Source: Oceanispirochaeta crateris
Lineage (GTDB): Bacteria; Spirochaetota; Spirochaetia; DSM-2461
NCBI RefSeq assembly: GCF_008329965.1
Contig: NZ_CP036150.1
Coordinates: 372,001-436,000 of the forward strand
Reading direction: 5' to 3'
DNA length: 64,000 bases
This document shows, piece after piece, positions 38,194 through 64,000 of the stretch. How positions within the stretch are numbered: the first letter of the stretch is position 1; each line of letters starts with the position of its first letter. The notes below the pieces were generated by a model. It saw nothing but the letters and a program-made list of their open reading frames with translations. It did no database searches and had not been told where the DNA came from. A program made the translations under genes and the position numbers.

Positions 38194-38362
38194 GTATAAC
38201 AAACAATTGAACTTGTCATTGCTATTGTCAAGTTTCTTGCTGATATCTGAACCTGATTAAAATAATTTTTTCCATTTAGAAGGATAGGGGATAAACTGAA
38301 AGCAAGAAAATCGCCAATGCCTGGCAAGCCAGGCCGCAACGCAAGTTAATTGGATGTTATAT
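38194..38362 (+). repeat. Integron attC recombination site 3
   Basis: The left arm GTATAACAAACAATTGAAC and the right arm, reverse complement ATATAACATCCAATTAAC, match except for two central bases and one extra G on the left (CAATTGAAC against CAATTAAC). Core sites are GTATAAC (38194-38200) and GTTATAT (38356-38362). A further inner stem is GCCTGGC/GCCAGGC. Confidence 0.8.
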
Positions 38363-39286: not shown

Positions 39287-39340
39287 ACTTAACACGGTAG
39301 CGGGATACCGCTGCCGATAATGTGGCGTTCTGCCTACATA
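39287..39340 (+). repeat. Short hairpin repeat copy R2
   Basis: ACTTAACAC, then GGTAGCGG/CCGCTGCC as an 8-bp stem, then GATAATGTGGCGTTCTGCC. The same order occurs in R3 and R4. ACTTAAC fits the RYYYAAC core-site rule, so a degenerate short attC is one possibility. Confidence 0.5.
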
Positions 39341-39705: not shown

Positions 39706-39757
39706 AAACACGGTAGCGTTAAACAACTGCCGATAACCGGCCTTCTGTCGACTTAAT
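39706..39757 (+). repeat. Short hairpin repeat copy R3
   Basis: AAACACGGTAGCGTT, a short GGTAG/CTGCC stem, then GATAACCGGCCTTCTGTCG. It begins 6 bp after the stop codon of the small gene. Confidence 0.5.
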
Positions 39758-47071: not shown

Positions 47072-48787
47072 TCAGTAATCCAACTCTTCCAAAACCCTCA
47101 CACCAATCCAGAATATTCCCGGGCTGAGCCGGACCTTATCCATGCCTGAGTCCGAGAGCATCATGCTGAAGTTGCGGTTGCTCTTGGCCCTCTCGTTATT
47201 CTTCTCGCACCAGGCAATATAGGTCGCGTAGAGCACGCTGGACTGAGTCATGGACTCCTCCTCAAAGACGCAGCAGTCAGTCAGGAACATCTGAATATCA
47301 CTCATCTGATTCCGATATTCTTCGGTGGCATCCTGGATGGCCTCCGGATTGCCCAAACCTTCTTTAAGCCATTTCAGGCAGCCTTCTACCATCCAGGTGA
47401 GAATACCAGGCAATTCCTTCTCCAGTTTCTCAGGCAGTTTCTTATCCTGCTTTTCCTCAGAGAAAGTCACCTCAAATGGTATGAGCTTTATTCGGCGCCA
47501 AATAGCAAAATCCATGCCGCTGATTCTGGGCTTGTGGTTGGTGGCCATCACGATCTTGAAGGTGGGAATAAATTGAAAATACTCCCCATAGAGAAAGCGG
47601 GCGCTGATTATATCATTTCCTGTCAGACGTTTGATCACCGACTCGGCCAGACGACCTCTCTCATCGCTCTCTGTGGCCGAGACAAAGCGAGCACCCTTAA
47701 GCCGGGCGATATCGTTGGTGGCCTGTTCTCCCTTTTTTTGCATAAAAGTCTCTGTCGGTGTGGTCATGGCGTAGTCTCCCATGATTTGAGTAATAACGTT
47801 AATAAAGGTGCTCTTCCCATTCGCTCCGGTTCCATAGAGGATAAACATAGCCTGACTAGACATGTCCCCTGTGAGACTGCAGCCTACAAACTTCTGGACA
47901 AATTTAATCAGTTCCCGTTTTCCATCGAATATGTCTTTCAGAAATTTCTTCCAAACGGGACAGGCTGACTCTGGATCATAGTTTACCGGTGATACTTTGC
48001 TAATGAGCTCCTCTCGATTATGAGCTCTCAGGCGTCCCGTATGGAGGTCAATAATCCCATTGTGGCAGTTGAACGAGTAGATATCTCTGTCAAAATCATC
48101 GGGGCCCAAACGAATGGATGGATCGGCGCGGACTAACTGCAGCATTGAGTCTATTTTCCGAGCGGTAGAACTCCTCCTACTATGGGCAATCATAGCCAGG
48201 GCCTCGTCGGTATTCCAGCAGTCAGCTGCCTTGTCCATCATTGCCTCGATGCTGAGCTTTCCCATCTCAAAGATGGCATTCCGATCATCCACCTTCCAGT
48301 GCCTGACATTCCATATCATCCACATCTTCCAGGGGGCGCAGTAACGGATATCTTCTCCCCAATCCTCAATCATCATACGGGCATTGAAGAAGTCCGAATA
48401 ATTCTCACCTCCCTCAATCCGGTTAGTAGCTAATATTCTTAGAGCCTCCCGCTCAATATGTTTGTTCGCTCCATTTGCAGGAATCTTTGGTTCTTTCCGG
48501 GTTTTCAAAGCTTTGGCATAACTGAGCCAGCGTAATTCAAAGAACCGAATGTCGTCTATTTCTTCGCCTCTTGTCTCATCCAAAAGTTCGGTATAACAGT
48601 TGAACATCAGAGATAAAAGACCATAACACTCATTGAGTCGTCCCTCGGCGGACAAAATCATTATTTCCTTCACATCTTCAGGAAAGGTTCTCTCCTCACT
48701 GAGGGCAATCGTAACGGCGTTACATTCCATCTCCTCATACCGCTTCAGTCGGATCATGAGTTTTTTCAGTTTCATTCTCTCAGCCAT
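47072..48787 (-). CDS. Phage/plasmid primase-helicase, P4/D5 type
   Basis: 571 residues from ATG 48787 with GGGAGGGA upstream; the ATG overlaps the previous stop codon. The SF3-type ATPase has Walker A GTGANGKST (around residue 320) and a long D5-like region before it (YSFNCHNGIIDLHTGRLRAH). The sensor part includes VMATNHKPRISGMDFAIWRR. These proteins start replication in P4-like phages and satellites. It is the last gene of the minus-strand phage run, an unusual place directly behind tail-type genes. Confidence 0.9.
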   Translation of the reverse strand: MAERMKLKKLMIRLKRYEEMECNAVTIALSEERTFPEDVKEIMILSAEGRLNECYGLLSLMFNCYTELLDETRGEEIDDIRFFELRWLSYAKALKTRKEPKIPANGANKHIEREALRILATNRIEGGENYSDFFNARMMIEDWGEDIRYCAPWKMWMIWNVRHWKVDDRNAIFEMGKLSIEAMMDKAADCWNTDEALAMIAHSRRSSTARKIDSMLQLVRADPSIRLGPDDFDRDIYSFNCHNGIIDLHTGRLRAHNREELISKVSPVNYDPESACPVWKKFLKDIFDGKRELIKFVQKFVGCSLTGDMSSQAMFILYGTGANGKSTFINVITQIMGDYAMTTPTETFMQKKGEQATNDIARLKGARFVSATESDERGRLAESVIKRLTGNDIISARFLYGEYFQFIPTFKIVMATNHKPRISGMDFAIWRRIKLIPFEVTFSEEKQDKKLPEKLEKELPGILTWMVEGCLKWLKEGLGNPEAIQDATEEYRNQMSDIQMFLTDCCVFEEESMTQSSVLYATYIAWCEKNNERAKSNRNFSMMLSDSGMDKVRLSPGIFWIGVRVLEELDY

Positions 48788-49077
48788 CAGCGTCCCTCCC
48801 GTCTGATAAAAACCTTCTGTACATCCCCGGGTGCACATTTGTCTCCTGTAAAACGGACCCAAGCCCAGAACCTCCAGTGCCCATACTGATCAATATCCCC
48901 TTCAGACACGGTATAACTGATAATCCCTTCAAGGGAATCTTCGATTAAAGCGGGAAAAGCGCCGTCCGTCCCATCGGGTTTTCTATAACGGATTTGGCAC
49001 TCTACTGCTTCCGACAGGGAACAGCTTGTATGGGTGCGGATAACCAGACTCGATTGCCCGGCGTAGATTCTATTCAT
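48787..49077 (-). CDS. Small phage protein of unknown function
   Basis: 96 residues, beta-rich, with QSSLVIRTHTSCSLSEAVEC and HWRFWAWVRFTGD. It lies between a large tail-type gene and the primase and overlaps the primase start. No family is recognised; the fold may be immunoglobulin-like. Confidence 0.65.
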   Translation of the reverse strand: MNRIYAGQSSLVIRTHTSCSLSEAVECQIRYRKPDGTDGAFPALIEDSLEGIISYTVSEGDIDQYGHWRFWAWVRFTGDKCAPGDVQKVFIRREGR

Positions 49078-49088
49078 ATAAGACTCCT

Positions 49089-50564
49089 TTAAATAGGGGA
49101 TTTAAGATCGATACTGCGGGTGATTCGGCTGTAAATTGTCAGCTCTTCAGAGATATGGGAGGGATAGGGATTAAAAAAGTCCCAAACCGCCCAGCTTTCC
49201 ATGATGGTGATAAAGGAAGAGAGTCGACGGCTAAAGGCGTCTTTCAAATCAAGAATCTCCGCACTCAGCCTCTTGTAAACGGTACTGAGACTCAAAATAT
49301 CCGTAGAGCCAGCTAGGGTCTCGATCAGTCGTATAAGTCCTCTTGAGGCGTTGATCTCCTCAGTCTCCCCCTCATTGTCACTGGATTGTCTCAGATATTC
49401 AGCCTGTTTAAAGAGCACTTCATCAGGCTTGATCCTTCCACTAATCTCCACATTCCAGGTGGTCACCGAGATAAAGTCGAAGTACTGGGAAAGGAGGATA
49501 TCGGGATAGCTGTAAGTGCTGCCGCAAACCTCGGGTGGAGCATCAAAGCTTGAAGGGTAGTGAACCCTCAATTGAGCACCGTCCACCTCATCGAAGTAGG
49601 GATAGTAGTAGTACTTGGCCATCAGTCCAAACCAGAGCTGGTCTCCCGCCGATTGCTGTATATTGACGTTAAAACTTCCGCTCTTCCAGGAGGGGGAGTC
49701 TCCTGTAGGAACATAGAGATTTATAAAAGGAGCGTTGTTGCTCACAAGGTTTACAGGCAGGTTTCCATCATAGAGAACGGGAAAACCACCGGCTTCCCAT
49801 TCGTTCTTATAGGAGTAGTAATAGGGAGTACAGGCTCCGGCTACTGGCAGATCGGGATTCAGTTTCTGAATAGCCATTCCAAGATCAATGGTGGGCATTC
49901 CAGGCTCATCATCAAAGAAGTCATAGTTTCCGGCTCCCACCGAATCAGAACCCAATCGGGGATCGACGGTCACGGGATAGCGTGCCTTCTTCAGCCAGTC
50001 TTCGTCCACCCTAATCATTAGAGCCTTACCGTCGTATTCCAAGTCCCCCCATATCCATCTTCCGGCAGCATCGATGATCTTAGGACGGTAAATATGACAG
50101 AATTTTCCGGTCCTGTACTTCCCATTGTTCCTCTTCCAGTAAAGAGCATAGCTACCTTTTACTTCTCCCATCATACGGGAACCCTTTCTGATCCCCTGCT
50201 TATGAAAGGAAAGCCCCCGGGGTACCTCCAGGGGGATGGGAAAGACTGGCTTTCGTGGAGGGGAGGCCAGCTGTATATCGTACTCTATGTTCCCCGTGTC
50301 CAGACGGCGGAATATATGTTTCCGGTCGAAGCAGATAAGTTCTGTTCGATCCGCTACGGTCTTCACACAGCGAACCTTTTCTCCAAAAATCCCCGTCTCC
50401 ATAATCAGGGTGACCTCTCCATCCCATTTCTCCAGGCTTAAAAGAGGGGTCCTGCTCACTCCCCAGGGACCTCCTCTTACACGGCAGGGCACATCATCAA
50501 AGCTTTGTGTATGAAAAAAACCTGTGGGACTGAAACCTAGACAATGTTTCTTATCAGGTCCCAT
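49089..50564 (-). CDS. Large phage structural protein, likely tail or fibre
   Basis: 491 residues, beta-rich, with YPVTVDPRLGSDSVGAGNYD, an aromatic-rich middle (MAKYYYYPYFDEVDG) and a helical C-terminus. The order in the cluster and the composition suggest a virion protein, perhaps receptor-binding. It overlaps the upstream gene by 11 bp. Confidence 0.6.
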   Translation of the reverse strand: MGPDKKHCLGFSPTGFFHTQSFDDVPCRVRGGPWGVSRTPLLSLEKWDGEVTLIMETGIFGEKVRCVKTVADRTELICFDRKHIFRRLDTGNIEYDIQLASPPRKPVFPIPLEVPRGLSFHKQGIRKGSRMMGEVKGSYALYWKRNNGKYRTGKFCHIYRPKIIDAAGRWIWGDLEYDGKALMIRVDEDWLKKARYPVTVDPRLGSDSVGAGNYDFFDDEPGMPTIDLGMAIQKLNPDLPVAGACTPYYYSYKNEWEAGGFPVLYDGNLPVNLVSNNAPFINLYVPTGDSPSWKSGSFNVNIQQSAGDQLWFGLMAKYYYYPYFDEVDGAQLRVHYPSSFDAPPEVCGSTYSYPDILLSQYFDFISVTTWNVEISGRIKPDEVLFKQAEYLRQSSDNEGETEEINASRGLIRLIETLAGSTDILSLSTVYKRLSAEILDLKDAFSRRLSSFITIMESWAVWDFFNPYPSHISEELTIYSRITRSIDLKSPI

Positions 50565-51102
50565 AAAAGGTGATCTCCCAGTCTATCTGCAGAATGTCGT
50601 TGGCCCCTATATTCACCTCAGGGGTGATCTGGGCATAGGCCAGACATATCCCGGAAGAGGATGCGTTCATAAGGGCGGCCTCATTGATACCTGTGGCATC
50701 CAGGCTGCCTGCGGGGAAGGTGGCCCGATAACAAGCCTTATCATCCGCCGATTCTCCTAAGGTTCCCTTTGTCGCAGGATAATCGTTGTCCATCCCTTGG
50801 CGGGTACCTGTAGGTGTATTGCAGCCTCCCGTATTATCCTTGGGGCTTAGCCCTGTCCAACCGGTTCCCACCTCTATATGGCCGTTTGCACTGTCTACGG
50901 CGGTCATTCCGCCGCCCACCGCCAGGTTAGCCAAGAGGGCATCGCCATAGGTCGTCACCACATTGTGGAAGGTAAAATCATTCAGCTTTCCAGGGAATCC
51001 CAGAATTCTTCGGAAGAGTCCTGGCTTACTCCGTTTGATTCTACCATCAGGGCTCAACACTCTCACTCTAACCCGTCCCTTAGTTCCTAGTCTTTCTTTC
51101 AT
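50554..51102 (-). CDS. Phage protein, probable tail/minor structural
   Basis: 182 residues from ATG 51102, which overlaps the previous stop codon (TGATG). It is Gly/Thr/Ala-rich with HIEVGTGWTGLSPKDNTGGC and a late NDILQIDWEITFYG. It resembles small phage tail-associated proteins but I cannot name the family. Confidence 0.6.
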   Translation of the reverse strand: MKERLGTKGRVRVRVLSPDGRIKRSKPGLFRRILGFPGKLNDFTFHNVVTTYGDALLANLAVGGGMTAVDSANGHIEVGTGWTGLSPKDNTGGCNTPTGTRQGMDNDYPATKGTLGESADDKACYRATFPAGSLDATGINEAALMNASSSGICLAYAQITPEVNIGANDILQIDWEITFYGT

Positions 51103-51563
51103 CAGAACAACCCTATCCTGTCGGCAGTCCATCCCCCTCCCAAAAGAAGAGCCGATCCAATATTCGTAAATCCAAGAACAAGACAGCGACGCTGCAGTCT
51201 TTGTATTTCATACTCTTTTTGTTTTAGGGTTTGCCGTTCCCGTTCTGCCAGAGCCTTGTAATAAGCGGTCTTCCCCGCTTCCTCGGCTACTGCTTCCCTG
51301 GCAGCCTCCCGGCTGGTTGTCTCAATCTCCTCCAGGGCTATTTCCATGATCCCCAGAACTATCTGGGCCACTTCGTCGCGACTGTAGGTATCTTCGGCAC
51401 CGATCCACAAAGCGACCTCCTCCATCGAGAGCATGTCGGGATACAGAGGGATAACGCTCATCGAAATCAGCATCAGGGAGAGAACGAATCTCCTCCCGTT
51501 TCCGGCGGCTGATCTCCTCCAGCTCTTCAAACCTGTTCTGCTCATTCTCATAATCTTCAGCAC
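51102..51563 (-). CDS. Embedded lysis-region protein with signal anchor, coiled coil and C-terminal membrane segment
   Basis: 153 residues from GTG 51563, chosen because AGGAGGAG lies 7 bases before it. The N-terminus has a basic stretch and hydrophobic run (RRFVLSLMLISMSVIPLYP) like a signal peptide. A long helical part (AREAVAEEAGKTAYYKALAE) and a hydrophobic C-terminus (LGFTNIGSALLLGGG) follow. It is read in a different frame inside the 3' part of the next gene upstream, an arrangement known for spanin pairs. Confidence 0.6.
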   Translation of the reverse strand: MLKIMRMSRTGLKSWRRSAAGNGRRFVLSLMLISMSVIPLYPDMLSMEEVALWIGAEDTYSRDEVAQIVLGIMEIALEEIETTSREAAREAVAEEAGKTAYYKALAERERQTLKQKEYEIQRLQRRCLVLGFTNIGSALLLGGGWTADRIGLF

Positions 51564-51702
51564 TGTGACTCTCCTCCTTTTCATTCTCTTGTTCCTCATT
51601 CCAACGGGACCACAGCGCAGTCCCGAGGACGCCTCCCAGAATCCCGGCCAGCACAAAGGCTCCCCGGGTCAGCCATCGTTTAACCTTTATCAGGAAACTC
51701 AT
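51322..51702 (-). CDS. Single-pass membrane protein, lysis-region partner
   Basis: 126 residues from ATG 51702 with GAGGAGGGAG just upstream. One membrane helix (GAFVLAGILGGVLGTALW) is followed by a highly charged coiled region (EEQENEKEESHSAEDYENEQ). The layout is like an inner-membrane spanin. The 3' two-thirds overlaps the embedded frame starting at 51563. Confidence 0.6.
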   Translation of the reverse strand: MSFLIKVKRWLTRGAFVLAGILGGVLGTALWSRWNEEQENEKEESHSAEDYENEQNRFEELEEISRRKREEIRSLPDADFDERYPSVSRHALDGGGRFVDRCRRYLQSRRSGPDSSGDHGNSPGGD

Positions 51703-51712
51703 AACTCCCTCC

Positions 51713-51982
51713 TCATCCACTGCTCCGGCGAGTCAGTATGCTTCCGGCTACCTTTAATCCGACAATGCCAAAGAGCACCATCATCAGCACTGCCAGCCAG
51801 ACCCACTGGCCAATATGTTTATTCACAAGCAACCAGGTCGCTAGGTAAAGACAGAAGGGTTTAAAGCCGAGCATCTTGGAGGGCAAGGCAATCATGCGCT
51901 TCAACAGGATGATAAAGTGATAGCCAAAGCTCATCTCCCATACAGCCTTATCCGACAGTATTATTCCGTCTCTTTCTTTCAT
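51713..51982 (-). CDS. Small membrane protein, holin-like
   Basis: 89 residues with two hydrophobic helices (FCLYLATWLLVNKHIGQW and VWLAVLMMVLFGIVGLKVAG) and a basic tail. Position just before two overlapping lysis-like genes suggests a holin, but there is no sequence motif to prove it. Confidence 0.55.
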   Translation of the reverse strand: MKERDGIILSDKAVWEMSFGYHFIILLKRMIALPSKMLGFKPFCLYLATWLLVNKHIGQWVWLAVLMMVLFGIVGLKVAGSILTRRSSG

Positions 51983-51984
51983 AC

Positions 51985-53496
51985 TTACTCCTCCAAAAGA
52001 TGGACCTGACAGTCCAGGCCCCGGCTTTCGTGATAGTCCAGTACCAGCTTTTCAACCCGGCACAGAACATCTTCTTCCTCCCTTTCCAACAAACACAGAG
52101 AACCAGATCGGATATAAAACAATCCCAGTTCGCTCTTGCCTTTAAAGCGACGCCTCTTTCTGATGCCCTTGGCTAATTGCCTATAGACCCAGTCCTCAGG
52201 ATGAGAGCGGTATACACCATCCACTCCCATGACCTGGTCGTCCGAAAAAAAACGACTGTCTCCGCTTTTGATCCGGATGCCGCAGGTAGCAATCTCATCC
52301 GGATCAGAGTGATAAAAGGCCGCCCCAGGTCGCATCACGATAGGGCGTCCCTTGATAGATAGTTTTTTCAGACTTCCTGCCAGATTACAGTTCAGGTTGA
52401 TCAATGCCTTTTGGCTCTCATAGTTGTAGTGGCTAATGGTCAGTCCCTCAGTGCCATCTGTACCGGATTGGTCATCAGCATCAAAGATTAGATCCGCTTC
52501 CAGCTCTGTTTGGTCTTGGATCTGATCGGCCCAGAGTACGGGGAGCCTCTGATACTCCTCCCTGACTTCATAGTTCGCGGTAAAGGGATAGCTCTCATCC
52601 TGTATGGGACGGCTTCCATCGGGCAGGAAAGGATAGCTGGGAGTCATGTCCGTGTCGTAGCTAACCGGCGGCTCTTCATAGCACCAGAGAAGCTGGAAGG
52701 CCAGTCTCTCGGGGCGGTTCCATTTCAGTCGGATTGAATTGGTATAGGCATCTCCTGCCTCCTCCTCGAGTAGCTCATGAAAGAGGCCGCTTTTCAAAAA
52801 TGAGGCTTCCTCTTCTGTTTCATCCTCCTGGTAGATAGAGCTAGAGAACAGGAGCTTCTTTTCCACCCCTCCTTCAAGCAGAGCCATACAGGATGAAGCT
52901 AAGGCGCATAGCTCGTCCCAGGGATTCCCTGATAAAGCGGCATAGACCAAAGACAGGGGAACAGAACAACTATCCAGATCCTCTGATGACAATCCAGCAC
53001 GGGAGGCGATAAGATGAAGTAGGCTTTTTTCCGGTAGTGCCTTATCGCTCATCACAAGATCGGTAACAACCAGCTTTTCTTCCCAGTTCCGAAGGGCTCC
53101 GAGTCGCTTGATTCGGGTTGGGGTATCTTCTAATACGATAGAGATACGAGTTCTCATGCCACTGACGGTTCTTATAAATCCAGAGTCGTTTACATACAGG
53201 GTAAAGCGGTGGAGAAAACGGCCGCAGTCTCCGGCTGAGAAGAGGATATGAACCTCCCTGTTACTTCCGCTGAGATCATTCAAGACGCCTGATTCATCCA
53301 CAAAGGTGACCCTGGCCGAGACACAGTAGCCGCCAAGAGAATCCCTGTAACTTGTTATGTAGGCCGACTCCACGGCGTCATCAGATAAACGGAGGATTTT
53401 CCCCTCATCATCGATCATTTCCAATACGATAAAGACCGATTCAGTCTTGCGATCCAGGCTCTCCTGTAAGGCGGGGTCCAGGGTAAAAAAAGCCAT
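51985..53496 (-). CDS. Large phage tail-type protein
   Basis: 503 residues, mostly beta with acidic segments. It starts AFFTLDPALQESLDRKTES and ends with ESRGLDCQVHLLEE. GGGAG precedes the ATG. The position after small tail genes suggests a baseplate, hub or distal tail protein. It overlaps the upstream stop by one base. Confidence 0.6.
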   Translation of the reverse strand: MAFFTLDPALQESLDRKTESVFIVLEMIDDEGKILRLSDDAVESAYITSYRDSLGGYCVSARVTFVDESGVLNDLSGSNREVHILFSAGDCGRFLHRFTLYVNDSGFIRTVSGMRTRISIVLEDTPTRIKRLGALRNWEEKLVVTDLVMSDKALPEKSLLHLIASRAGLSSEDLDSCSVPLSLVYAALSGNPWDELCALASSCMALLEGGVEKKLLFSSSIYQEDETEEEASFLKSGLFHELLEEEAGDAYTNSIRLKWNRPERLAFQLLWCYEEPPVSYDTDMTPSYPFLPDGSRPIQDESYPFTANYEVREEYQRLPVLWADQIQDQTELEADLIFDADDQSGTDGTEGLTISHYNYESQKALINLNCNLAGSLKKLSIKGRPIVMRPGAAFYHSDPDEIATCGIRIKSGDSRFFSDDQVMGVDGVYRSHPEDWVYRQLAKGIRKRRRFKGKSELGLFYIRSGSLCLLEREEEDVLCRVEKLVLDYHESRGLDCQVHLLEE

Positions 53497-54356
53497 TACA
53501 GACTCCCTCCTTTAGCTTTTAGGTGTGTAAAAACCCGGACCTTCAGAGGACCGATGATGGTATAGTTAAACTCCCGCCCCCAGATCCCTTTATTATCAGG
53601 AAAACTCTCTTCTCCCTGGTAGATGGCCTCGTTTATGCTAATCTCAAATCGTACTCGCTGACCCTTCTCATAGAACTCCCTGGATTGGATGATGAGGGAA
53701 GCTGAGATCCGCCGCCTCATCATTGAGTAATTTGTATCGACGCAGTCCTTTCGGCGGATCATAAGGGTATGAGTGATGACCTCATCGGAGAAACTACCCT
53801 CCAGGGAGAAGGCTGCTAGATCGGGAATGGTCTCTCCCTCCAGGGAAATCTCATCTCCAGACAGATAGAAAAAGGCCTGATCGGGAAGAGAGGGGGCTCC
53901 TTCCTTACCAAAGCTTCCAGATTGGATGTTCATCCCTTCCAGTACCAGCTTTAAAAGGACAGGCTCAGTCCGTCTGCCCGTAAGGGAGAATCCACGGAGG
54001 ATTAGATCTTCCAAAAGCTGGATAGTCTCATCATAGCTACGCATAAGTGTGAGAGTTGTTACTTCTCCGTCACAGGTCTCCAGTTCATGACAAAAAAGGC
54101 CTTCTGTCTGAGAGACAGGGCCGGATGATGTGATAGTACCGGTAATGAGAAGGAACAAATCAGGAATGATATCCCGGTTCAGCCGGAGGGAGATACTGCC
54201 AATTAACTCGTTACCTAAGTTGATCACCCCGGGGCTGTGGCGACTCTGCCCCAAGGGTTTTAAAGATTTAATCTTCTCCCTAAACTGCAGAGTTTCCCGC
54301 ACATGGGCCAGAGCGGCATAAACTCCATCTCTGCGGACAAGAGAATAGCGAATCAT
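53496..54356 (-). CDS. Phage protein, likely tail
   Basis: 286 residues, beta-rich, with LGQSRHSPGVINLGNELIG and RGFSLTGRRTEPVLLKLVLE. It overlaps the upstream gene by 4 bp. Not recognised further; part of the compact tail module. Confidence 0.6.
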   Translation of the reverse strand: MIRYSLVRRDGVYAALAHVRETLQFREKIKSLKPLGQSRHSPGVINLGNELIGSISLRLNRDIIPDLFLLITGTITSSGPVSQTEGLFCHELETCDGEVTTLTLMRSYDETIQLLEDLILRGFSLTGRRTEPVLLKLVLEGMNIQSGSFGKEGAPSLPDQAFFYLSGDEISLEGETIPDLAAFSLEGSFSDEVITHTLMIRRKDCVDTNYSMMRRRISASLIIQSREFYEKGQRVRFEISINEAIYQGEESFPDNKGIWGREFNYTIIGPLKVRVFTHLKAKGGSL

Positions 54357-54829
54357 TTGATGCGGTCCCTATAAAGGCGAATGGTATAGGTGGCCTCTGG
54401 ATAACCTGGTGCACCTGTCATAGAGAGGGGTGAGACCTGACACTCATCCAGGATAAAGCGGTCTATAAGGGATGATATTGTTTCATCGTTATCCAACCAT
54501 TTCTGGATCAAAGCTGCGTAACGGTAGGCTATAAAGTTCGGGGCGCACCTCTCAAAACGGCATTCCAAGATTAGAAAATACTCTCCCAGTTCAACAAAGG
54601 GATCGCTGCTCTTTTTTTTGACCTCATTCAAGTGAACTCTTACCAGGGGGAGAGGCTTTAACTCCTTTTCATCATAACTGTCTATTACAGAAGAAAAAGA
54701 TTTGATCCAATTCTCACCCTTTTGAGCATTACAAAGACTGACTAGTTCAGGGAAGAAGCCGTTTAAAGATTCAAAGACGGCAAGGTATATCTCTTCTTCT
54801 GGAACGATGATGATCTCTAAATCACTCAT
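54353..54829 (-). CDS. Phage tail-terminator/head-closure-like protein
   Basis: 158 residues. The size, acidic N-terminus and C-terminal beta hairpin GAPGYPEATYTIRLYRD fit tail completion proteins that follow the head-tail connector. It starts 1 bp after that gene. Confidence 0.55.
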   Translation of the reverse strand: MSDLEIIIVPEEEIYLAVFESLNGFFPELVSLCNAQKGENWIKSFSSVIDSYDEKELKPLPLVRVHLNEVKKKSSDPFVELGEYFLILECRFERCAPNFIAYRYAALIQKWLDNDETISSLIDRFILDECQVSPLSMTGAPGYPEATYTIRLYRDRIK

Positions 54830-54830
54830 A

Positions 54831-55424
54831 TCAATAGCTCTTTCTTCGGTAAGAATTGAGAATGGTTCTGGCGTGTTCGGGGATCTCTTTGGAGTACATC
54901 AAAGTCGAGTTTTGACTGGAACTGCTTTTAAGGAGGTCTATACCAATCTGCCGGGCCTTCAGACGTCCAAGCATCCATGTGATGATCTCGCAAAAGGCGG
55001 TTTTCAAATCTTCAGGCATGGTCTCATCCGTGTAACCCGCTGTATAGCTTATACGAATATTGTTGCTGCCTCTGGGAAAGGTATATCCAGGAAGGAGAGT
55101 GAGTTCTATAGGCTGATCGGATTCTCCTGGTAAAGGGGTGAGAGAATAGAGGGTAGGATCGATGCTGCGGTACTGGAGATCCCGACGGCTTCTAATCTGG
55201 AGAAGATTGAACTCGGATACTGGATAGTCTAACAGGTAAAGGGCATCAGAATTATGTCCATCCTGATACTCAGATTTGATGCGATTTATAAGTATACGAT
55301 GAGTGTATTTTTCAATTTCGATGCTGACAGATAAGGAGAGTAGTGTTACCATATTTTCATCTCTGTCATCTAGGTTCAGGAATTTCATGATCTCAGGAAC
55401 CGGAAGCAGCGTCAGTTTGGACAT
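54831..55424 (-). CDS. Phage head-tail connector (gp6-like)
   Basis: 197 residues. The N-terminal helices (MKFLNLDDRDENMVTLLSLS, then EIEKYTHRIL) and the later IRISYTAGYTDETMPEDLKT with AFCEIITWML are typical of gp6/HK97-type connectors. These proteins join the portal ring to the tail. No portal or capsid gene is found upstream. Confidence 0.75.
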   Translation of the reverse strand: MSKLTLLPVPEIMKFLNLDDRDENMVTLLSLSVSIEIEKYTHRILINRIKSEYQDGHNSDALYLLDYPVSEFNLLQIRSRRDLQYRSIDPTLYSLTPLPGESDQPIELTLLPGYTFPRGSNNIRISYTAGYTDETMPEDLKTAFCEIITWMLGRLKARQIGIDLLKSSSSQNSTLMYSKEIPEHARTILNSYRRKSY

Positions 55425-55540: not shown

Positions 55541-55685
55541 ATAGACCTCCTATAAGTGTTCTGGGAATAGTGTGAAGTAGAAGTTCAGGTTTGGAGGGTA
55601 GGGTTTACCCTACTTTTGAGAGGTAATGATACTGAATCGGGATAAGAATATTGTTATGTTTAAAAAGGTATAAAAAAGAGAGAAT

Positions 55686-56816
55686 ATGGAAAGGCGAGTA
55701 CGAAAACTTGAAGCAAATCTTGATAAGAGTCAAAGCAATATTCTAAATCTTCAAAAAAAAGTATTTAGTAATAAATATAGAGAACAAATAAAATGGAGTA
55801 CAGATGAAATCAGATTAAGAAAATGTTTAGTAAAGCCTGATTTAAAAAAAGCAACAGTACTGACAGATTCTACATGGAGATATGTATGGATTTATTTAAA
55901 ACAAAATAGATGTGAATCAGCCCTATATTACTGGGAACAAGCGGAAAATTTCTACAAAGCTTCAATTTCACTTCCAATAGATGCAAGGCCATTAACCCTT
56001 TATTATTGTTATTTAAATGCAGTTAAAGCTTTGTTGAAATCGAAATCAATTTCATTTGACACTAAACATGGAGTCTCAGGTGAAAGAATCAAAGGTAGAA
56101 TAAATATTATAAATGAGAAAATTAAATTAAAAGAAAAGGGTGTTTTATCTGGACTTTCGAATTATTTGAAAGAACCAGTTCCTGAAGGTGGAGAAGACTA
56201 TGAGCTAAAAGATATTCTGTACAATTTAGCTTATATTCATAGATCATTTTGTTTAACATTTCCTCGTTCAACAGAACTCTATATCCCAATTAAAACACCA
56301 ACATTTGTTCAAGACAAATCAAGGAAAATAGGTTGGGTCGAATTTGAGTTATGTGACTATTTTAAATCTAATACAATTATTAATAACCTTGAAGGTTACT
56401 CTGAAGATAGGTTTTATAATGATAAAGGGAAGAGGGTTTTACGAAGGAATAAAACATTTAAATGGGAAGCTCCAAGAAATTCACCAACACAAAAGAGTAT
56501 CAATAATCTGTATTCTTACTATGAGAAAGTAAGACCAGATTTTCAGTATATTTATAGTCCAAATAGATTATGGTATTTAAAAAGAAAGAATATCAGACAT
56601 GAGATTAATAGAAATCCTTTGGTTTTAACATATGCTGCTATGCATAGGCTAAGTGAACTCGCGAGATATGAACCAAAAATCCTAAGTCAGCATTTGGAAA
56701 GACGGTCCAGTTGGTTGATTAGTGAATATATTGATCGCTCAGTTGATCAATTTATTGATGGTATTTCATCTGAGATCACTAAAGATGAGTTTAAAATTGC
56801 AGGAACAAGAAATTGA
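55686..56816 (+). CDS. YaaC-like protein in a cassette
   Basis: 376 residues. ALYYWEQAENFYKASISLPI, then ARPLTLYYCYLNAVKALL, followed by the GVSGERIKGR region, match the YaaC family pattern. A short coiled N-terminus precedes it. Function of YaaC proteins is unknown; members occur in mobile DNA. attC site 4 starts 4 bp after the stop codon. Confidence 0.65.
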   Translation: MERRVRKLEANLDKSQSNILNLQKKVFSNKYREQIKWSTDEIRLRKCLVKPDLKKATVLTDSTWRYVWIYLKQNRCESALYYWEQAENFYKASISLPIDARPLTLYYCYLNAVKALLKSKSISFDTKHGVSGERIKGRINIINEKIKLKEKGVLSGLSNYLKEPVPEGGEDYELKDILYNLAYIHRSFCLTFPRSTELYIPIKTPTFVQDKSRKIGWVEFELCDYFKSNTIINNLEGYSEDRFYNDKGKRVLRRNKTFKWEAPRNSPTQKSINNLYSYYEKVRPDFQYIYSPNRLWYLKRKNIRHEINRNPLVLTYAAMHRLSELARYEPKILSQHLERRSSWLISEYIDRSVDQFIDGISSEITKDEFKIAGTRN

Positions 56817-56819
56817 CTA

Positions 56820-56928
56820 TATAACGAGCTATTGAAGCAGTCATCTCTACGGTCATGAAATCAGCTATTCTGCTTCGCAGGCAGATTTCACGTCAGCTTA
56901 CGAGCTGCAGCATAAAAGATAGTTCGAT
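56820..56928 (+). repeat. Integron attC recombination site 4
   Basis: The left arm TATAACGAGCTATTGAAGC pairs imperfectly with the right end, reverse complement starting ATCGAACTATCTTTTATGC, with one extra G. Inner pairs include TCATGAAATC with GATTTCACG. Core sites are TATAAC (56820-56825) and GTTCGAT (56922-56928). Confidence 0.6.
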
Positions 56929-56956
56929 GGACGCCTTCGGTGCAGAGGAGTATTTT

Positions 56957-57481
56957 ATGGAACGAAATAATGGAACGAAAATGATAAAGATAGTTATTTT
57001 TTTTATTGTTTTCTTATGGGTTGGCTTGTTTTCTTTAAATGCAGAAGAGAACTTAATTGCAACAACATCAGAAGGTAAAAAGGTTATATTGAATACTGAC
57101 GGAACATGGTCTTATATAAATGAGACAGAACAAAAAATAACAATTGTAGATTTTGACATAATTCTAAGAGACAAGAATTATGATGAAAGTAGGTACAATA
57201 AAGATGCCATCTTGAATTTGAAAGTTAAAAATATATCAGGAAATAAAATAGGCGGCTATCGCATAACTGTCAAAATGGAGAATGGATTTGGCGATCTATT
57301 ACATACACTCAAATTAACATCTGGGAATTCTGTTCTTGATAATGATGAAATCGATAATGCAAACTTTGTGTTTAAAGATAATCAATTTATTGATGATGAA
57401 GTATATGATGATTTGTCAGCCTATAGTAAAAATAACTTGATAATAACAATTGTTGATTCACAGGTGCTACAATCACAATAA
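56957..57481 (+). CDS. Secreted protein with DUF3157-like start
   Basis: 174 residues. A hydrophobic signal (IVIFFIVFLWVGLFSLNA) is followed by IATTSEGKKVILNTDGTWSY, a motif seen in DUF3157-type periplasmic proteins, and then a beta-rich domain (KVKNISGNKIGGYRITVKME). GGAG lies 6 bases before the ATG. It begins 28 bp after attC site 4. Confidence 0.65.
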   Translation: MERNNGTKMIKIVIFFIVFLWVGLFSLNAEENLIATTSEGKKVILNTDGTWSYINETEQKITIVDFDIILRDKNYDESRYNKDAILNLKVKNISGNKIGGYRITVKMENGFGDLLHTLKLTSGNSVLDNDEIDNANFVFKDNQFIDDEVYDDLSAYSKNNLIITIVDSQVLQSQ

Positions 57482-57917
57482 AACAAAAGGAGTTAATGGT
57501 ATGACAAATTTACTCAATATGAGTTTAGTGGAACCGGTATTCAGTCATATTGCAGGTATTAAGAAACTAAATAGATTTACTCTGCATTGAAAGCAGAAGG
57601 TGAACACTCAATGGCGGCTGTATTGTATGGTGCATAATATTGGAAAAATTAAGATTGAATGAGTATAGAATGAGGGTTGATATGGGATTCTGGTTAGAAT
57701 GAGCCAGTGGCATATGAAATTAAATGTAGTGGGTTTCTGATTGATATCTCGATTGGATTCTTTATTTGATAATAAATATTGAGAACTGGTCAGTAATTAT
57801 CAGGAAACGGAATACTGAGAATCGAGAAGTAGTTTTTCTATAGTCTCGTTATGTTTATAAAGGCAAAAAAGCTTAGTAAAAAAATTGAATCTATTAAATT
57901 TACCTAGAGGTGATTAC
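57482..57917. other. Cassette spacer with a 29-codon frame
   Basis: A short frame (57501-57590, ATG with AAAGGAG upstream, 29 codons) might be a gene fragment. A GTTATGT at 57848 resembles an attC right core, but no matching left arm is seen. The rest shows nothing I can name. Confidence 0.3.
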
Positions 57918-58574
57918 ATGACTGATGAAACTCTACATAAAATACTAAAAAATGTTAAAGAATTATCTGAAAGTGATTTATTATTTTCAAAACCCATTTC
58001 AGATCATGTAGATGTAGCTAAATATTGGGAATCAAAACCAATAGAAAATGATGATATTATAGCAAATTTTAATTCAATTGACCTTTTCCTAATAAAAAAT
58101 GAAAAAAAAATATTTGTCGGAATTGTATATGATATGTTCAATGACATTCACGTCTTCATAAAGCCAGAACATAGAGGGAAAGAATATTTAGACAATGCAT
58201 TAAATAAGACAATATTTCCTTACCTTAAAACCGTAAAATTACGAAAAAAAATCTGTATTTCAGTTGAAGATGATAATGAGTTTGGAAAAAAAAGTGCATT
58301 TCGTAATGGATTCGTTCAAATAGAGAATGATAAATATGAAAAAGATATATCTTCTATTTCTGATTATCAAAAATATTCGTCTAAGACATCTACAGATACA
58401 ACTGAAATAGAAAGACTTAGGAAGAAAGCATACTTTATATATAAATTGCTTTATAGATTCGATGATGAACTAAAATATAGGCATGATATTGATTTAGGTA
58501 TCAAAGATATTAAAGAAGAAGTACAAAATATTTACTTAGATCTTAAATATAACATTGTAAATCAAAATCCTTAA
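57918..58574 (+). CDS. GNAT-like acetyltransferase in a cassette
   Basis: 218 residues from ATG 57918, with AGAGGTGAT upstream. The region FVGIVYDMFNDIHVFIKPEH followed by RGKEYLDNALN resembles the GNAT acetyl-CoA region, and KKICISVEDDNEFGKKSAFR followed by NGFVQ matches the late motif. A helical extension of about 70 residues follows. Substrate unknown. Confidence 0.6.
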   Translation: MTDETLHKILKNVKELSESDLLFSKPISDHVDVAKYWESKPIENDDIIANFNSIDLFLIKNEKKIFVGIVYDMFNDIHVFIKPEHRGKEYLDNALNKTIFPYLKTVKLRKKICISVEDDNEFGKKSAFRNGFVQIENDKYEKDISSISDYQKYSSKTSTDTTEIERLRKKAYFIYKLLYRFDDELKYRHDIDLGIKDIKEEVQNIYLDLKYNIVNQNP

Positions 58575-58640
58575 TTTAAGACAATTCACATATATAATGA
58601 TTTGAGAAATATTTATTGAAGATAATTTAGAGAGTAAAAA

Positions 58641-59381
58641 ATGCAAAAATACACTTTAAGTTTACAATTGTTTGATGCATCAATATTAGATTGGCAAACA
58701 CTTTCATATTTTGTGAGCCTAATATCAATTATTCTCTTGATTTTTACAATGATAGAAATGATTCGACAAAGACGCGAATCATATCGACCTAAATTATTAA
58801 TAAAAACTGAGTCTATTCAAATTGAAACGAATAATAAAAATATACCAACAGTTTGGAGAAACCCTACTAATAAAGATAAAAGAACAGAAGGATATTTTGA
58901 TCTTAGAGTATATAATATTGGATTAGGTCCCGCTACAGATATTCAAATAAAATGGGAAATACCAAAACAAAAAATAATAAAAAAGTTTAAAGATTATTCA
59001 CCGGTATTGAACAACAACAATAAACTTCGGTATGTAACAACTAAAGGCTCTTTGGAGTATGAATTATTTCAAGAAGATGATTTATCAATACGTAAAGAGT
59101 CATTTCTTATGAATAATGATTTTTTTTATATATCGTTACCAACAAGTATTTTTTACTATTTTTCTATTATAAGCCATTATATTAGTAAAAAAAGTAACTA
59201 TGGAGAAAGGATAGAACTCGATCCTATGAAATTAGAATTATCATATTTTGATATTGGTAAAAAAAAGATTCAGGAGAGAATGACATTAGATACAGAGTTT
59301 ATTTCTATGTACAATGACGATGGTCGTGAAAATGATCAGGTAATTGCTATTGGAGACATACATGTAATTAATGACACATAA
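58641..59381 (+). CDS. Membrane-anchored hypothetical protein
   Basis: 246 residues. One membrane segment (YFVSLISIILLIFTMIEMI) near the N-terminus leads into a cytoplasmic beta-rich domain (GYFDLRVYNIGLGPATDIQI) common to many small phage- and plasmid-linked proteins of unknown role. The stop codon lies inside the left core of attC site 5. Confidence 0.6.
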   Translation: MQKYTLSLQLFDASILDWQTLSYFVSLISIILLIFTMIEMIRQRRESYRPKLLIKTESIQIETNNKNIPTVWRNPTNKDKRTEGYFDLRVYNIGLGPATDIQIKWEIPKQKIIKKFKDYSPVLNNNNKLRYVTTKGSLEYELFQEDDLSIRKESFLMNNDFFYISLPTSIFYYFSIISHYISKKSNYGERIELDPMKLELSYFDIGKKKIQERMTLDTEFISMYNDDGRENDQVIAIGDIHVINDT

Positions 59382-59476
59382 CAAGCAAATGAACATTGTC
59401 AGCACTACTGATCACAGTTCTTGTATTCACAAGAACTGCGCCAGTTGACGGTCTGTAAGTTCTTTGCATGTTCTAT
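59376..59476 (+). repeat. Integron attC recombination site 5
   Basis: The left arm ACATAACAAGCAAATGAAC pairs with the right end, reverse complement ATAGAACATGCAAAGAAC. They match over AACA, CAAA and GAAC with one extra T on the left. The centre is a perfect 10-bp hairpin, CAGTTCTTGT/ACAAGAACTG. The site is 101 bp long. Confidence 0.78.
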
Positions 59477-59495
59477 AGAATCGGGGAACCAAATT

Positions 59496-60242
59496 ATGGT
59501 TATTGATAAAATTAATACTTGGCCAACAGATTTGATAAACTTTTTTGACAAAAATTACAAAAAATTTATTGGATGGGAATGTAAAGGAGAATACTGTTTA
59601 TCTCCAATGAAATATGATTTATTAGTCCATGATTTGATAAATATTTTAAAGAAATACTGCCTGACAGGTTATCACTGTACAAAATTACTTCAACAAGAGA
59701 TTGATAATATTTACAAAAAAGGTTTAACGCTTCAATGCAGATCATCTATGCAGAAAAGAATTGATTTAATTGAAATAGATCCTTCTAAACTCAGTATTCT
59801 TGAAAGATTAAAGCTAGAAAATCAATGTGATGAAATAAATCGTAAAGGAATGATTTGGTTTTGCTTTTTTTATCCTAAAATGGCTGATGATCATGGAATT
59901 ATGAGATTCTTTAGATCTTGGGGAGGGGAAGCTTTATATAACTCACATGAAAGAGATAAAGAAACAGGACAATTTCTAAGGGAAATAGGTATTCCTTGTA
60001 TAATTGAAGCTAATGTTCCAATGAAAATAATTCCAGATATTCGGCTTCCATATGGTCAAGTTACAAGAGTATATCTAGAGTATAAAGGTTATGAATTAGA
60101 AAATCTGTATGAATATGAAGGATATATTATCCATAACCTTCCATCTAAAAACATAATTGACATTCATAATTACCCAAGTAAAAGATTTATAGAATTAACA
60201 GGTTGTATGGATTGGGATTATAGATTTGAGAAGATAAAATAA
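59496..60242 (+). CDS. Cassette protein of unknown function with WGGEALYNSHE motif
   Basis: 248 residues from ATG 59496, with GGGGAA upstream. It shows LTGYHCTKLLQQEIDNIYKK, MIWFCFFYPKMADDHGIMRF, the motif SWGGEALYNSHE and GIPCIIEANVPM. I have seen this arrangement in unnamed proteins but know no function. It lies 19 bp after attC site 5; its own downstream attC is not seen because the IS element begins 30 bp later. Confidence 0.6.
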   Translation: MVIDKINTWPTDLINFFDKNYKKFIGWECKGEYCLSPMKYDLLVHDLINILKKYCLTGYHCTKLLQQEIDNIYKKGLTLQCRSSMQKRIDLIEIDPSKLSILERLKLENQCDEINRKGMIWFCFFYPKMADDHGIMRFFRSWGGEALYNSHERDKETGQFLREIGIPCIIEANVPMKIIPDIRLPYGQVTRVYLEYKGYELENLYEYEGYIIHNLPSKNIIDIHNYPSKRFIELTGCMDWDYRFEKIK

Positions 60243-61165
60243 GTAAATGATTGAGGTTATATGAAAGTATTATAGTGCTCCTAAGAAGCTGTACAGCTCC
60301 TAAATTAGAAATTACTGTATAATAAACAGCAGAAGGAGTACAAAAGATGCGCAAAAAGTGGAGCGATTCAGAAAAAGCAAGAATTGCGCTCATGGCGATT
60401 CGCGAAGAGAATACGATCAGTGAAATAGCTCAGGAAACAGGGGCACATCCGAACATGATTTCAAAGTGGAAATGAGAATTACTGGATAATGCCGATTCTG
60501 CTTTTCGTAATGGGAAATCAGAGAAAGAAAGGGATCTGGAAAAAGATAAAGAAGAGTTGTTCACGCAAATCGGGAAGCTGCATGCAGAGAACGATTTTCT
60601 AAAAAAACTTAAAGAAAATGGGACTCCTGTAAAATCCATGGTTGAACCGGATCGAGATGATGTAAGCATTTCCCGTCAGTGTCATTTGTTGGGCAAAAGC
60701 CGCAGCTGGTACTATTATCAAGAACAGAAAAATCCCGTGTTGGAATATAGAGATAATATTGAGAAGAGAAAGATTAAGAAGCTTTGGGAGTAGCATTCCT
60801 TTTATGGCTACAGACACATCTATAACCATCTCAACAAGAATATGGACCATAATACCTCTCTGAAGAGAGTTTACATACTTATGAGAGAACTGGGGATCAA
60901 GGCTATTATTCCGAAACGGTGTCTTTCCAAACCCGGCAAGAACCATAAGAAATATCCCTATCTGCTCCGGAATCTCGATATTACCCATCCTAAACACGTT
61001 TGGGCTTCGGATATCACCTATGTTGTTCTTCCCGGAGGAATTGTTTACGTAGTCGCAATAATCGATCTGTACAGCAGAAAAATCCTTTCCTGGAGTGTAA
61101 GTAACACGATGGACCCTATAGTTCAAGATAGTTGTCACAGTATTTAATATGGAGGACAACATCAA

Positions 61166-61654
61166 TTGAGTAAGTACAGTACAGGATTTCGAAACAGCAT
61201 TTTACGGAAAGTTCTGCCCCCTGAGAGTAGGTCTATTGCCCAGGTAAGCCGGGAAGAAGGAATCTCAAATCAAACAATTAGGAATTGGGTTGCCAAGGCT
61301 AAAGATGGTACACTGGATGCAGCTGCTGGAGAGTTATCACCAGATCGGAGGAGCATTTCAGAAAAGATGTCCCTTCTCTTAGAGAGCCGATCAATTTCAA
61401 AAGATGAGATAGGAAATTGGCTTAGAAAGAATGGTCTCCACAGTGAACATCTATCCCTCTGGGAGCAGGAGCTGCGGCAGTCTATGACAGAAAAAGAAAA
61501 GACCATCCAGGAACAAAATCATCAATTGAAGCTAAAGACTAAAAAGCTTGAGAAAGAGCTTGCTCGTAAAGATAAAGCCCTGGCTGAAATGGCAGCCCTA
61601 CTAACTCTTAAAAAAAAAGTGGATGCTCTATTGGGGGACGACGAGGACGATTAA
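61166..61654 (+). CDS. Transposase OrfA of element B
   Basis: 162 residues. A helix-turn-helix (SIAQVSREEGISNQTIRNWV) is followed by a long coiled coil (EKTIQEQNHQLKLKTKKLEK). Near the end, a run of nine A residues (61610-61618) gives a -1 slippage site that would fuse it to OrfB, which is open in the -1 frame. Confidence 0.9.
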   Translation: MSKYSTGFRNSILRKVLPPESRSIAQVSREEGISNQTIRNWVAKAKDGTLDAAAGELSPDRRSISEKMSLLLESRSISKDEIGNWLRKNGLHSEHLSLWEQELRQSMTEKEKTIQEQNHQLKLKTKKLEKELARKDKALAEMAALLTLKKKVDALLGDDEDD

Positions 61655-61686
61655 TTACTCAGGATCTCAGAGATCTAGCAGTTTCA

Positions 61687-62688
61687 TTGTTAGATGAAGC
61701 AATATCAGATGGAGCCAGAAGATCAGAAGCCTGTAATGTAATGGATATATCTGTCCGGACATATCATAGATGGAGTGATTCTTCTTGTGGTGACAAAAGA
61801 AAAGGAGCAGTGAAAAAGGTTAAAAGAAAGCTTGCAGAGTATGAACGTCAAGAGATTCTCAGGATTGCCTGTGAAGATAGATTTGTGGACTGTAATCCAT
61901 ATCAGATTGTTGTAACTCTTTTGGATGAAGGAGTATATATAGCATCTGTAAGTACTTTCTACAGAGTGCTGAGAGATGCAGACATGATTCACCACAGAAA
62001 AAGAAGTTACCCTGCAAGAAAGCAGAATAAACCTCCTGAGTTGGCAGCTACAGGCCCCAATCAGGTTTGGAGTTGGGATATTACTTTTCTCAAAACAGAT
62101 GTGAATGGAATCTTCCTTTACTGCTATATGATCGTTGATGTCTGGAGTCGTAAAATTGTTGGTTGGGAGATACACGAATCTGAATCATCGGAGCTAGCCG
62201 AGCAAATGTTTAGAAGGTTAAAAATCATTCATAAACTGGAAGGAATCAGGCTGCATTCTGATAATGGGAATCCCATGAAAGGTGGTACCATGATTATGAC
62301 ATTGTATGCATTAGGAGTGATCCCATCTTTTTCAAGACCCAGAGTCAGTGATGATAATCCCTATTCTGAATCTTTGTTCAAAACTTTAAAATATACGGCC
62401 GGATACCCAAAGTATTTTAAGGATATACATCAAGCTCGTGTATGGATGGCAGATTTTGTGAATTGGTATAACAATGAGCATAAACATTCAGGAATCTCAT
62501 ATATTTCTCCAGCCCAAAGACACTGTGGCGATGGTTCAGAAATAATGGAGAAAAGGAATAAGGTCATAAGAAAAGCAATTAGCAAAACTCCTGAAAGGTG
62601 GAGTTCTGATCAAAAGATATGGGAGGATCAGAAACATGTGTATCTGAACCCATCTTTAGAGACTAAGAAGCAACTGATTTCAGCATAA
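61687..62688 (+). CDS. Transposase OrfB of element B (rve integrase domain)
   Basis: 333 residues counted from the TTG at 61687, though the -1 frame is open back through the slippage site, so the active form is probably an OrfAB fusion. The catalytic triad is visible: Asp in WSWDITFLK, Asp in LHSDNGNPM and Glu in PYSESLFKTLKY. No nonsense codons interrupt it. The element may still be active. Confidence 0.92.
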   Translation: MLDEAISDGARRSEACNVMDISVRTYHRWSDSSCGDKRKGAVKKVKRKLAEYERQEILRIACEDRFVDCNPYQIVVTLLDEGVYIASVSTFYRVLRDADMIHHRKRSYPARKQNKPPELAATGPNQVWSWDITFLKTDVNGIFLYCYMIVDVWSRKIVGWEIHESESSELAEQMFRRLKIIHKLEGIRLHSDNGNPMKGGTMIMTLYALGVIPSFSRPRVSDDNPYSESLFKTLKYTAGYPKYFKDIHQARVWMADFVNWYNNEHKHSGISYISPAQRHCGDGSEIMEKRNKVIRKAISKTPERWSSDQKIWEDQKHVYLNPSLETKKQLISA

Positions 62689-63252
62689 AAAAATCAAAAG
62701 TTGTGACAACTATGTTGAAACATTCCGATGGATACGGCTTTTGTTATGGAAGCTCTGATGCAGGCCATGGTGAGGTACGGTTTACCGGAAATCTTCAATA
62801 CCGATCAGGGCAGTCTGTTTACCAGCAACGAGTTCTCATCTCTTCTTAAAGGAGAAATGGTGCGGTTCAGCATGGACGGGAAAGGCCGCGTTCTGGACAA
62901 TATTTACATTGAAAGATTCTGGAAAACTCTGAAGTCTGAAGACATTTATCTCTACCGGTATGATACTCTAAACACTCTCCGAAAGGGAATGATGAAATAC
63001 TTCAGATTTTACAATTCAGTCAGGCCTCACCAGAGTCTGAATGGGAACTCTCCGGATGAGATATATTTCCGGGAGTCTAACTTAAAAGTGGCATAAAGCT
63101 GTTTGACTTGAAGGTGCACTATGTTAAATAACATAAAATTATAATAATTTTTGAAACAGTTAGATTTTTGTATTCACAAATAGGACTCCAATCATACGGA
63201 ATTAGTCCTGTATTTTTTTAGTAGCGTATTATTACACAGATTTTTAATTGTC

Positions 63253-63400
63253 TTCTCCTTTTTTCCAACGTCTAATGAAGATCCTTATCAGACCATCAGG
63301 AACCCGTAAAGGCCTGTGCCCCTTAGGGGTGCCTTCGGCAGCCTTTACTGAACCCTGTTGGCCTGATGAAGGTGGGGTAAGCCGTTGGCAAAAGGGGAGA
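63253..63400 (+). ncRNA. Candidate highly structured RNA, HEARO/omega-RNA-like
   Basis: Nested stems are visible. An outer stem pairs TCCTTTTTTCCAACG (63256-63270) with CGTTGGCAAAAGGGG (63383-63397). Next, CATCAGG (63294-63300) pairs with CCTGATG (63362-63368). Inside, GTAAAGGC (63306-63313) pairs with GCCTTTAC (63341-63348). That last stem encloses two small hairpins, CCCC/GGGG and TGCC/GGCA, so the centre is a three-way junction. From memory the layout and the GATGAAGGTGGGGTAAG segment resemble HEARO (IscB-associated) RNA, but no IscB-type ORF is here. A leader RNA for the next gene is the other option. Confidence 0.5.
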
Positions 63401-63447
63401 GATTCTCTCTCCGGATGATGTTATTTCTTTTTTTATTGGAGGGTTCT

Positions 63448-63681
63448 ATGGATAAGAAAGTGTATACGCCTCAGATTCATGTGGATTCTGCTTTTCTGCT
63501 ACGTCGTGTGGCTTGGGCAGCTGAGAAGCCTATGACATACACATTAGATGAGTGTATCAGGGGGTTGGTGAATCAGGTAGACAGGCAAAAGTTATGTGGA
63601 GCCTGCCGGGATCACCGCTGTTTGGAGTGTCCAGTTAGCCAGTATTATGGCAAATCTGGTCTAGATTCAATCCTACGTTGA
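63448..63681 (+). CDS. Small protein with four-cysteine zinc-binding motif
   Basis: 77 residues from ATG 63448, with TTGGAGGG upstream. The N-terminal half has HVDSAFLLRRVAWAAEKPMT then YTLDECIRGL, a helical pattern. The C-terminal half has CGACRDHRCLEC, a Cys-x2-Cys-x4-Cys-x2-Cys motif likely to bind zinc. I do not recognise the family. It begins 48 bp after the structured RNA. Confidence 0.7.
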   Translation: MDKKVYTPQIHVDSAFLLRRVAWAAEKPMTYTLDECIRGLVNQVDRQKLCGACRDHRCLECPVSQYYGKSGLDSILR

Positions 63682-63690
63682 TCCTGTATT

Positions 63691-63716
63691 CAGGGCTTAC
63701 CCTTTAGTAAGCCCTG
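63691..63716. terminator. Stem-loop between convergent genes
   Basis: CAGGGCTTAC and GTAAGCCCTG make a perfect 10-bp stem with a 6-base loop. No T-run follows, so termination strength is uncertain. Confidence 0.55.
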
Positions 63717-63723
63717 GCAATTC

Positions 63724-63837
63724 CTAGTCTTTCTGATGCTGATCGATTTGTTCATTCAAAATAGCGATATGATTCGTTAACTGATGAATGACATCTTCTA
63801 ATCTTTCAATTTCCTTTTGATAATCCTTCTCTGTCAT
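63724..63837 (-). CDS. 37-residue coiled-coil peptide
   Basis: The peptide begins MTEKDYQKEIERLEDVIHQL and continues with regular hydrophobic spacing, so it is probably a short coiled coil. AAAGGAG lies 8 bases before this ATG. A longer frame in the same register runs from 63951 but lacks a ribosome binding site. Confidence 0.5.
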   Translation of the reverse strand: MTEKDYQKEIERLEDVIHQLTNHIAILNEQIDQHQKD

Positions 63838-64000
63838 AACCTTGACTCCTTTAAAATTGATTCTGTAAGAATCACAGACAGAAAGAAGCTGGTGCTTCAA
63901 AGTATTGAAATGTTTTTGATTTTTTCTTCTCAGCCGACCAGATAAGCCCATTTCTCGTTGGAGTCTTTTGTGGGCTTGAAAATGGTCTTGGCTTTCTCAA

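Follow-up and report, generated by a model that had tools for sequence, protein, structure and literature searches.

Integron cassettes in the probable cargo slot of a prophage of the spirochaete Oceanispirochaeta crateris

The question raised by the locus

How did a group of integron cassettes come to lie among phage genes, 1.65 Mb from the sole integron integrase (IntI) that exceeds the family cut-off in its genome? Integron cassettes are thought to spread mainly via plasmids, transposons or transformation. The cassettes in question form a block, here called block 2, in a window of 64,000 nucleotides (genome positions 372001–436000) of O. crateris, whose genome is a single contig of 4,012,482 bp; positions given without a prefix are those of the window. 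We consider it highly probable that block 2 is a CALIN, a cluster of attC sites without an integrase, lodged in the cargo slot of a prophage, and that its cassettes derive from the integron system to which the array beside IntI at 2.08 Mb also belongs.

The attC sites and cassettes of block 2

Two attC sites, both on the + strand and 2.4 kb apart, lie in block 2 at 56819–56928 and 59376–59476. They were evaluated with a scanner that combines the attC motif with arm pairing rather than a covariance model, at a cut-off of 9.5, where shuffled sequence yields 0–2 chance matches per strand of 20–64 kb and shuffles of the window yield none. The site at 59376–59476 scores 11.6 and is well formed, with AAC and GTT boxes, paired arms and one extrahelical base; none of 200 shuffles folds as well as its bottom strand (z −4.3). 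The site at 56819–56928 has degenerate arms (fold z −1.9) and falls below the cut-off; because it shares 92.9% identity over 99 nt (E 5e-36) with an attC site adjoining IntI (L007:13435–13533), we regard it as genuine and partly decayed. The covariance model R1 gives the two sites 93.6 and 79.8 bits, scores that are partly circular and not independent, since both sites are among the 13 used for that model. Scanner, fold and identity to the IntI-adjacent attC thus bear out the first-pass annotation, which had placed attC sites at 56820–56928 and 59376–59476. With two attC sites close together and no integron integrase nearby, block 2 is, as judged from its sequence, a CALIN of three cassette units.

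All the cassette genes are on the + strand. The first cassette carries a gene of the YaaC family (55686–56816, 376 aa; PF14175, 178.7 bits), recognized as YaaC-like from the outset. The second holds three genes, at 56957–57481 (174 aa, no Pfam match over the cut-off), 57918–58574 and 58641–59381 (246 aa), the latter two without an assigned function. These had been described as three unknown or GNAT genes; the three + strand reading frames stand, whereas a GNAT identity for 57918–58574 finds no support in Pfam or NCBIfam. Between the first two lies a repeat of 332 bp (57519–57850, + strand), one of three dispersed genomic copies (block 2, the IntI array and 3.03 Mb; 92–93% identity). Its match to the IntI array was considered as a sign of cassette exchange and dropped in view of the third copy elsewhere. 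The gene of the third cassette (59496–60242, 248 aa) encodes the WGGEALYNSHE protein, just as first described, and lacks an attC of its own. The cassette is cut short by an IS3-like element interrupted by a second IS (60271–63128, + strand, ends set by eye), recognizable by split transposase ORFs and inverted repeats (61122–61148/62693–62719), which occupies the expected place of the missing site. Block 2 has a G+C content of 0.25–0.32, against about 0.50 in its flanks, and in this and in its + orientation it matches block 1, a likeness already pointed out in the first-pass annotation.

The functions of these genes are mostly unassigned. The five genes gave no PADLOC or NCBIfam matches in the annotation of defence systems, and a search for YaaC in named phages gave none. 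The WGGEALYNSHE protein has no relative among 296 genomes of the phylum; similar proteins (about 31% identity) occur on Sphingomonas plasmids, and its AlphaFold model, made without an alignment, is not usable (pLDDT 33).

The integron system of the genome

IntI, at 2.083 Mb, scores 373.5 bits against a cut-off of 265 and has an array adjoining it. A model search of the whole genome gave 25 attC matches. They comprise those of block 2, matches at 2070–2080 kb (the IntI array), a lone site at 1043 kb, matches at 408–410 kb in the array that we call block 1 (genome 407–411 kb, window 35.0–39.2 kb, + strand), and those of a third array. The sites of block 1 at 36039–36161, 36939–37119 and 38194–38362 (+ strand) were found by both the scanner and the covariance model and lie outside the prophage; between them is a Phd/YefM antitoxin and RelE/YafQ-like toxin pair (36399–36921). 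This third array, larger than block 2, starts about 11 kb past the end of the window (G000:C1:447067–464019, that is L010:11067 to L011:8119; attC matches at 448.9–464 kb). Comparison of the attC sites places those of block 2 in one family with the other integron sites of the genome. A near-identical Fic gene, with attC sites on its flanks, is present in both the IntI array and the third array, and these arrays therefore share cassettes. The third array contains defence-type genes (GmrSD/NsnA-like with HEPN, AbiH-like and Fic proteins), among them a gene for a 321-aa Fic protein of which there are two identical copies.

IntI exceeded the family cut-off in 18 of the 41 genomes searched, this one counted. 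Its relatives in a contig scan reach at most 53% identity, and several of the closest belong to metagenome-assembled genomes of Spirochaetaceae and Spirochaetales and to Ca. Marispirochaeta. Chromosomal integrons with IntI, attC sites and strain-specific cassettes are known from Treponema (Wu et al. 2013, PMC3607928). The system described here is likewise a spirochaete chromosomal integron with IntI and attC sites; it differs in having several arrays far from IntI, one of them within a prophage, and in its attC sites, mostly of about 100–180 nt against 63–68 in T. denticola (PMC3607928).

The prophage that carries block 2

Genes of a single prophage, on the − strand, lie to either side of block 2. 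To the right of the block (genome 436–447 kb) are genes for the capsid (genome 437155–438456), a protease, a LuxR-type regulator, the portal, TerL, TerS and an integrase; to its left are a head–tail connector gene (54831–55424; phrog_442, E 6e-15) and the remainder of the second half of the prophage (47072–54829), made up of virion-type genes lacking an assignment and a D5 primase gene and homologous to contig G004:C63 from another species of the genus. The order of integrase, terminase, portal, protease and HK97-fold capsid is that of an HK97-type element. No clear tail family was recognized with PHROGs, several virion-type genes being left without assignment, and the element has weak spanin- or holin-like matches and a C39 peptidase gene. 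The end of the latter and small ORFs mark the point at which the prophage resumes (63256–64000), with homology to G004:C56 from 63286. Near the D5 end lies a G+C-rich region, some 730 bp long and with no obvious genes (45290–46021), that is 70% identical to L209:1348–2069.

The interval between the capsid and connector genes is 9731 bp here, against 75–720 bp in the IMG/VR relatives in which it can be measured, where some gene ends were extrapolated from alignments and one case was negative (an overlap). In the other species of the genus (G004) the two halves of the element lie on separate contigs; the second half (L209) matches up to 55637 and the first (L215) from 63286, and each then gives way to cargo that is not related to block 2. 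A genome of another family (G367) has the entire element on one 44-kb contig, again with cargo at the seam occupied by block 2. Unrelated cargo at the same seam in both relatives indicates that this is a recurrent cargo slot, which in O. crateris spans approximately 55638–63255 and holds block 2 and the nested IS elements. Cargo seams in G367 lie between TerL and portal genes, between C39 peptidase and connector genes, between homologues of a 286-aa and a 503-aa protein, and before D5.

A pattern search of IMG/VR for relatives of the 503-aa virion gene, the connector and D5 gave none. Two IMG/VR relatives have cargo after the connector genes, namely a heavy-metal ATPase and an ArsR-like regulator in L119 and type I restriction-modification genes in L122. 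The TerL–portal seam holds a gene for an HD-domain protein in O. crateris (L010:5342–7150) and four different genes in G004 (L215:5434–8908). Directly after the connector genes of IMGVR_UViG_3300021431_003554, a distantly related element, there is a short attC-like site beside a MazEF-like pair (L148:9765–9828); this is possibly another instance of an attC in or close to the cargo region.

Palindromes at the seams

The palindrome GGGTAGGGTTTACCCTAC has three exact copies in the whole genome, all within the prophage: one precedes the connector operon, another the portal gene, and the third lies between the genes for integrase and terminase. The copy just upstream of the connector operon (55596–55613) is a candidate operator at the left edge of the cargo slot. 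In G367, similar palindromes are found just after the integrase gene and before the portal gene, the connector gene, the homologue of the 503-aa gene and the D5 operon. No palindrome precedes the 503-aa gene or D5 in O. crateris or G004, where these genes are not parted by cargo. A palindrome scan of control stretches and of three IMG/VR relatives gave none. We read the palindromes at the seams as putative operators that would let each operon work alone when cargo parts it, and the LuxR-type regulator of the element is a candidate for the protein that binds them. Seams marked in this way offer a simple handle for finding cargo in related elements.

The ends of the element and the split array

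The right end of the prophage, at the integrase, is joined to the right half of an attC in both O. crateris and G004, 17 nt from the R' GTT; the two may descend from one shared ancestral insertion. In a further genome, G334, a half-attC (19 nt, by eye) lies upstream of an integrase of 45% identity and is followed about 950 nt later by a whole attC. G367 has one complete attC at this end, with two others, all reading away from the integrase. The element thus adjoins cassette arrays in four genomes (O. crateris, G004, G334 and G367), from which we infer that attC arrays are preferred attachment sites of this integrase lineage. The stronger proposal that the clade always targets attC was rejected. 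The preference is not universal, since other members are found next to tRNAs (L229, L255) or at loci that have no attC; a tRNA also adjoins the L119 element, which is more distant.

The left end of the prophage could not be located. A search for direct repeats between L010:10700–11300 and window positions 38–48 kb found only a 12-mer at chance level, and the far end of the G367 element showed neither an attC nor a convincing repeat. The contig with the D5 half of the G004 element has at its start the right half of an attC, downstream of which the sequence is homologous to that following the window attC at 38194–38362; there is therefore an array on the D5 side as well.

Between block 1 and the third array lie the prophage and copper genes (41.1–44.8 kb). 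A repeated intergenic motif, CTGCCGATAA/CTACCGATAA, occurs beside the copper genes at 39291–39320, 39707–39736 and about 44947. Block 1 and the third array read in the same direction, and the third array starts at the half-attC fused to the integrase end; the position of block 1 beside an MFS gene is common to another species of the genus (G001). It is plausible that block 1 and the third array (447–464 kb) are halves of one split array, a common origin that we infer, no relative with an uninterrupted array having been found.

How the cassettes may have entered

The first-pass annotation had regarded blocks 1 and 2 as one larger host array split by the copper island and the prophage, with block 2 outside the latter. 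A larger array interrupted by these insertions does remain plausible, but block 2 is not one of its halves, since it sits inside the prophage. The two blocks are alike in orientation, low G+C content and attC family, and block 2 lies near other arrays, as would be expected of a divided host array; however, one ordered set of phage genes occupies both flanks of block 2, and in related elements these genes are adjacent or parted by other cargo, so that we give this origin very little credence. If the cassettes are phage cargo, they could also have entered the slot as any other cargo does, through recombination, whether homologous or mediated by IS elements, or through phage mosaicism, with no role for IntI. 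The unrelated cargo of the slot in relatives and the IS elements adjoining block 2 are in keeping with such an entry, and the 332-bp repeat common to the IntI array could have supported homologous exchange. The cassettes nevertheless retain the orientation and order of an array, and block 2 begins beside an R'-like box, GTTATGT (55653–55659, + strand), 33 bp before the start of the YaaC gene. The R' box of three attC sites of the genome consists of the 7-mer found at this candidate phage/cassette junction; the match is only suggestive and weakly significant, since 2.8% of shuffles of the stretch hold one or another of the observed R' 7-mers. The corresponding right junction has been destroyed by the IS elements. 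We consider entry as ordinary cargo possible rather than probable. On the reading that we prefer, a CALIN fed by the genome's integron system, IntI would pick up cassettes from another array and insert them at a secondary G/TT site within the cargo slot. The element would itself enter by its own tyrosine integrase with attC as attB, its entry dividing a larger array of which block 1 and the array at 447–464 kb would be the two parts, and the cassettes would travel with it if packaged.

A different question concerns the carrier, and either answer to it is compatible with a CALIN inside a prophage. Capsid-forming PICIs have an integrase, primase, TerS/TerL, portal, protease, capsid and connector, plus cargo. 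The element resembles them in its gene set (integrase, TerS, TerL, portal, protease, capsid, connector and D5 primase, with no tail gene recognized in PHROGs) and in carrying cargo; its gene order may differ from theirs. Its size of about 20 kb without cargo and its several cargo seams would also suit a capsid-encoding satellite that needs a helper for tails. On the other hand, several of the unassigned virion-type genes could encode a tail, and the weak spanin- or holin-like matches together with the C39 peptidase suggest lysis genes of its own. The satellite identity is accordingly a tentative one, towards which we do not lean.

Comparison with known systems and significance

Phages whose genomes contain integrons or CALINs have already been described (Qi et al. 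2023, PMC9892861). Shewanella prophage M16-3 has a CALIN among its structural genes, and the excision points of Vibrio anguillarum phage p16 are attC sites of a chromosomal integron (PMC9892861). Block 2 is similar to the former as an attC cluster inside a prophage with structural genes on its flanks; the O. crateris prophage is similar to p16 in ending at an attC of an integron, here at the integrase end only. Unlike the phages of that study, the element resides in a spirochaete, its CALIN slot holds other cargo in related elements, and its half-attC beside the integrase is seen again in related elements, with no direct repeat found. What is new with respect to known phage CALINs is therefore the host group, the recurrent cargo slot, the palindromic seams and the attC at the integrase end.

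These findings suggest that traffic between integrons and one lineage of phages runs both ways. By inserting next to cassette arrays and accommodating cassettes internally, such a lineage would offer them a direct path from one integron to another. More speculatively, and with less than even confidence, we envisage a spirochaete lineage of capsid-encoding elements that uses attC as its attachment site and takes cargo at the seams of its operons, several of which have a palindromic operator; having taken up cassettes at one seam, it would act as a shuttle between integron-bearing cells. Whereas the genes of block 2 mostly lack an assignment, families that act in phage defence are represented among the cassettes of the third array nearby.
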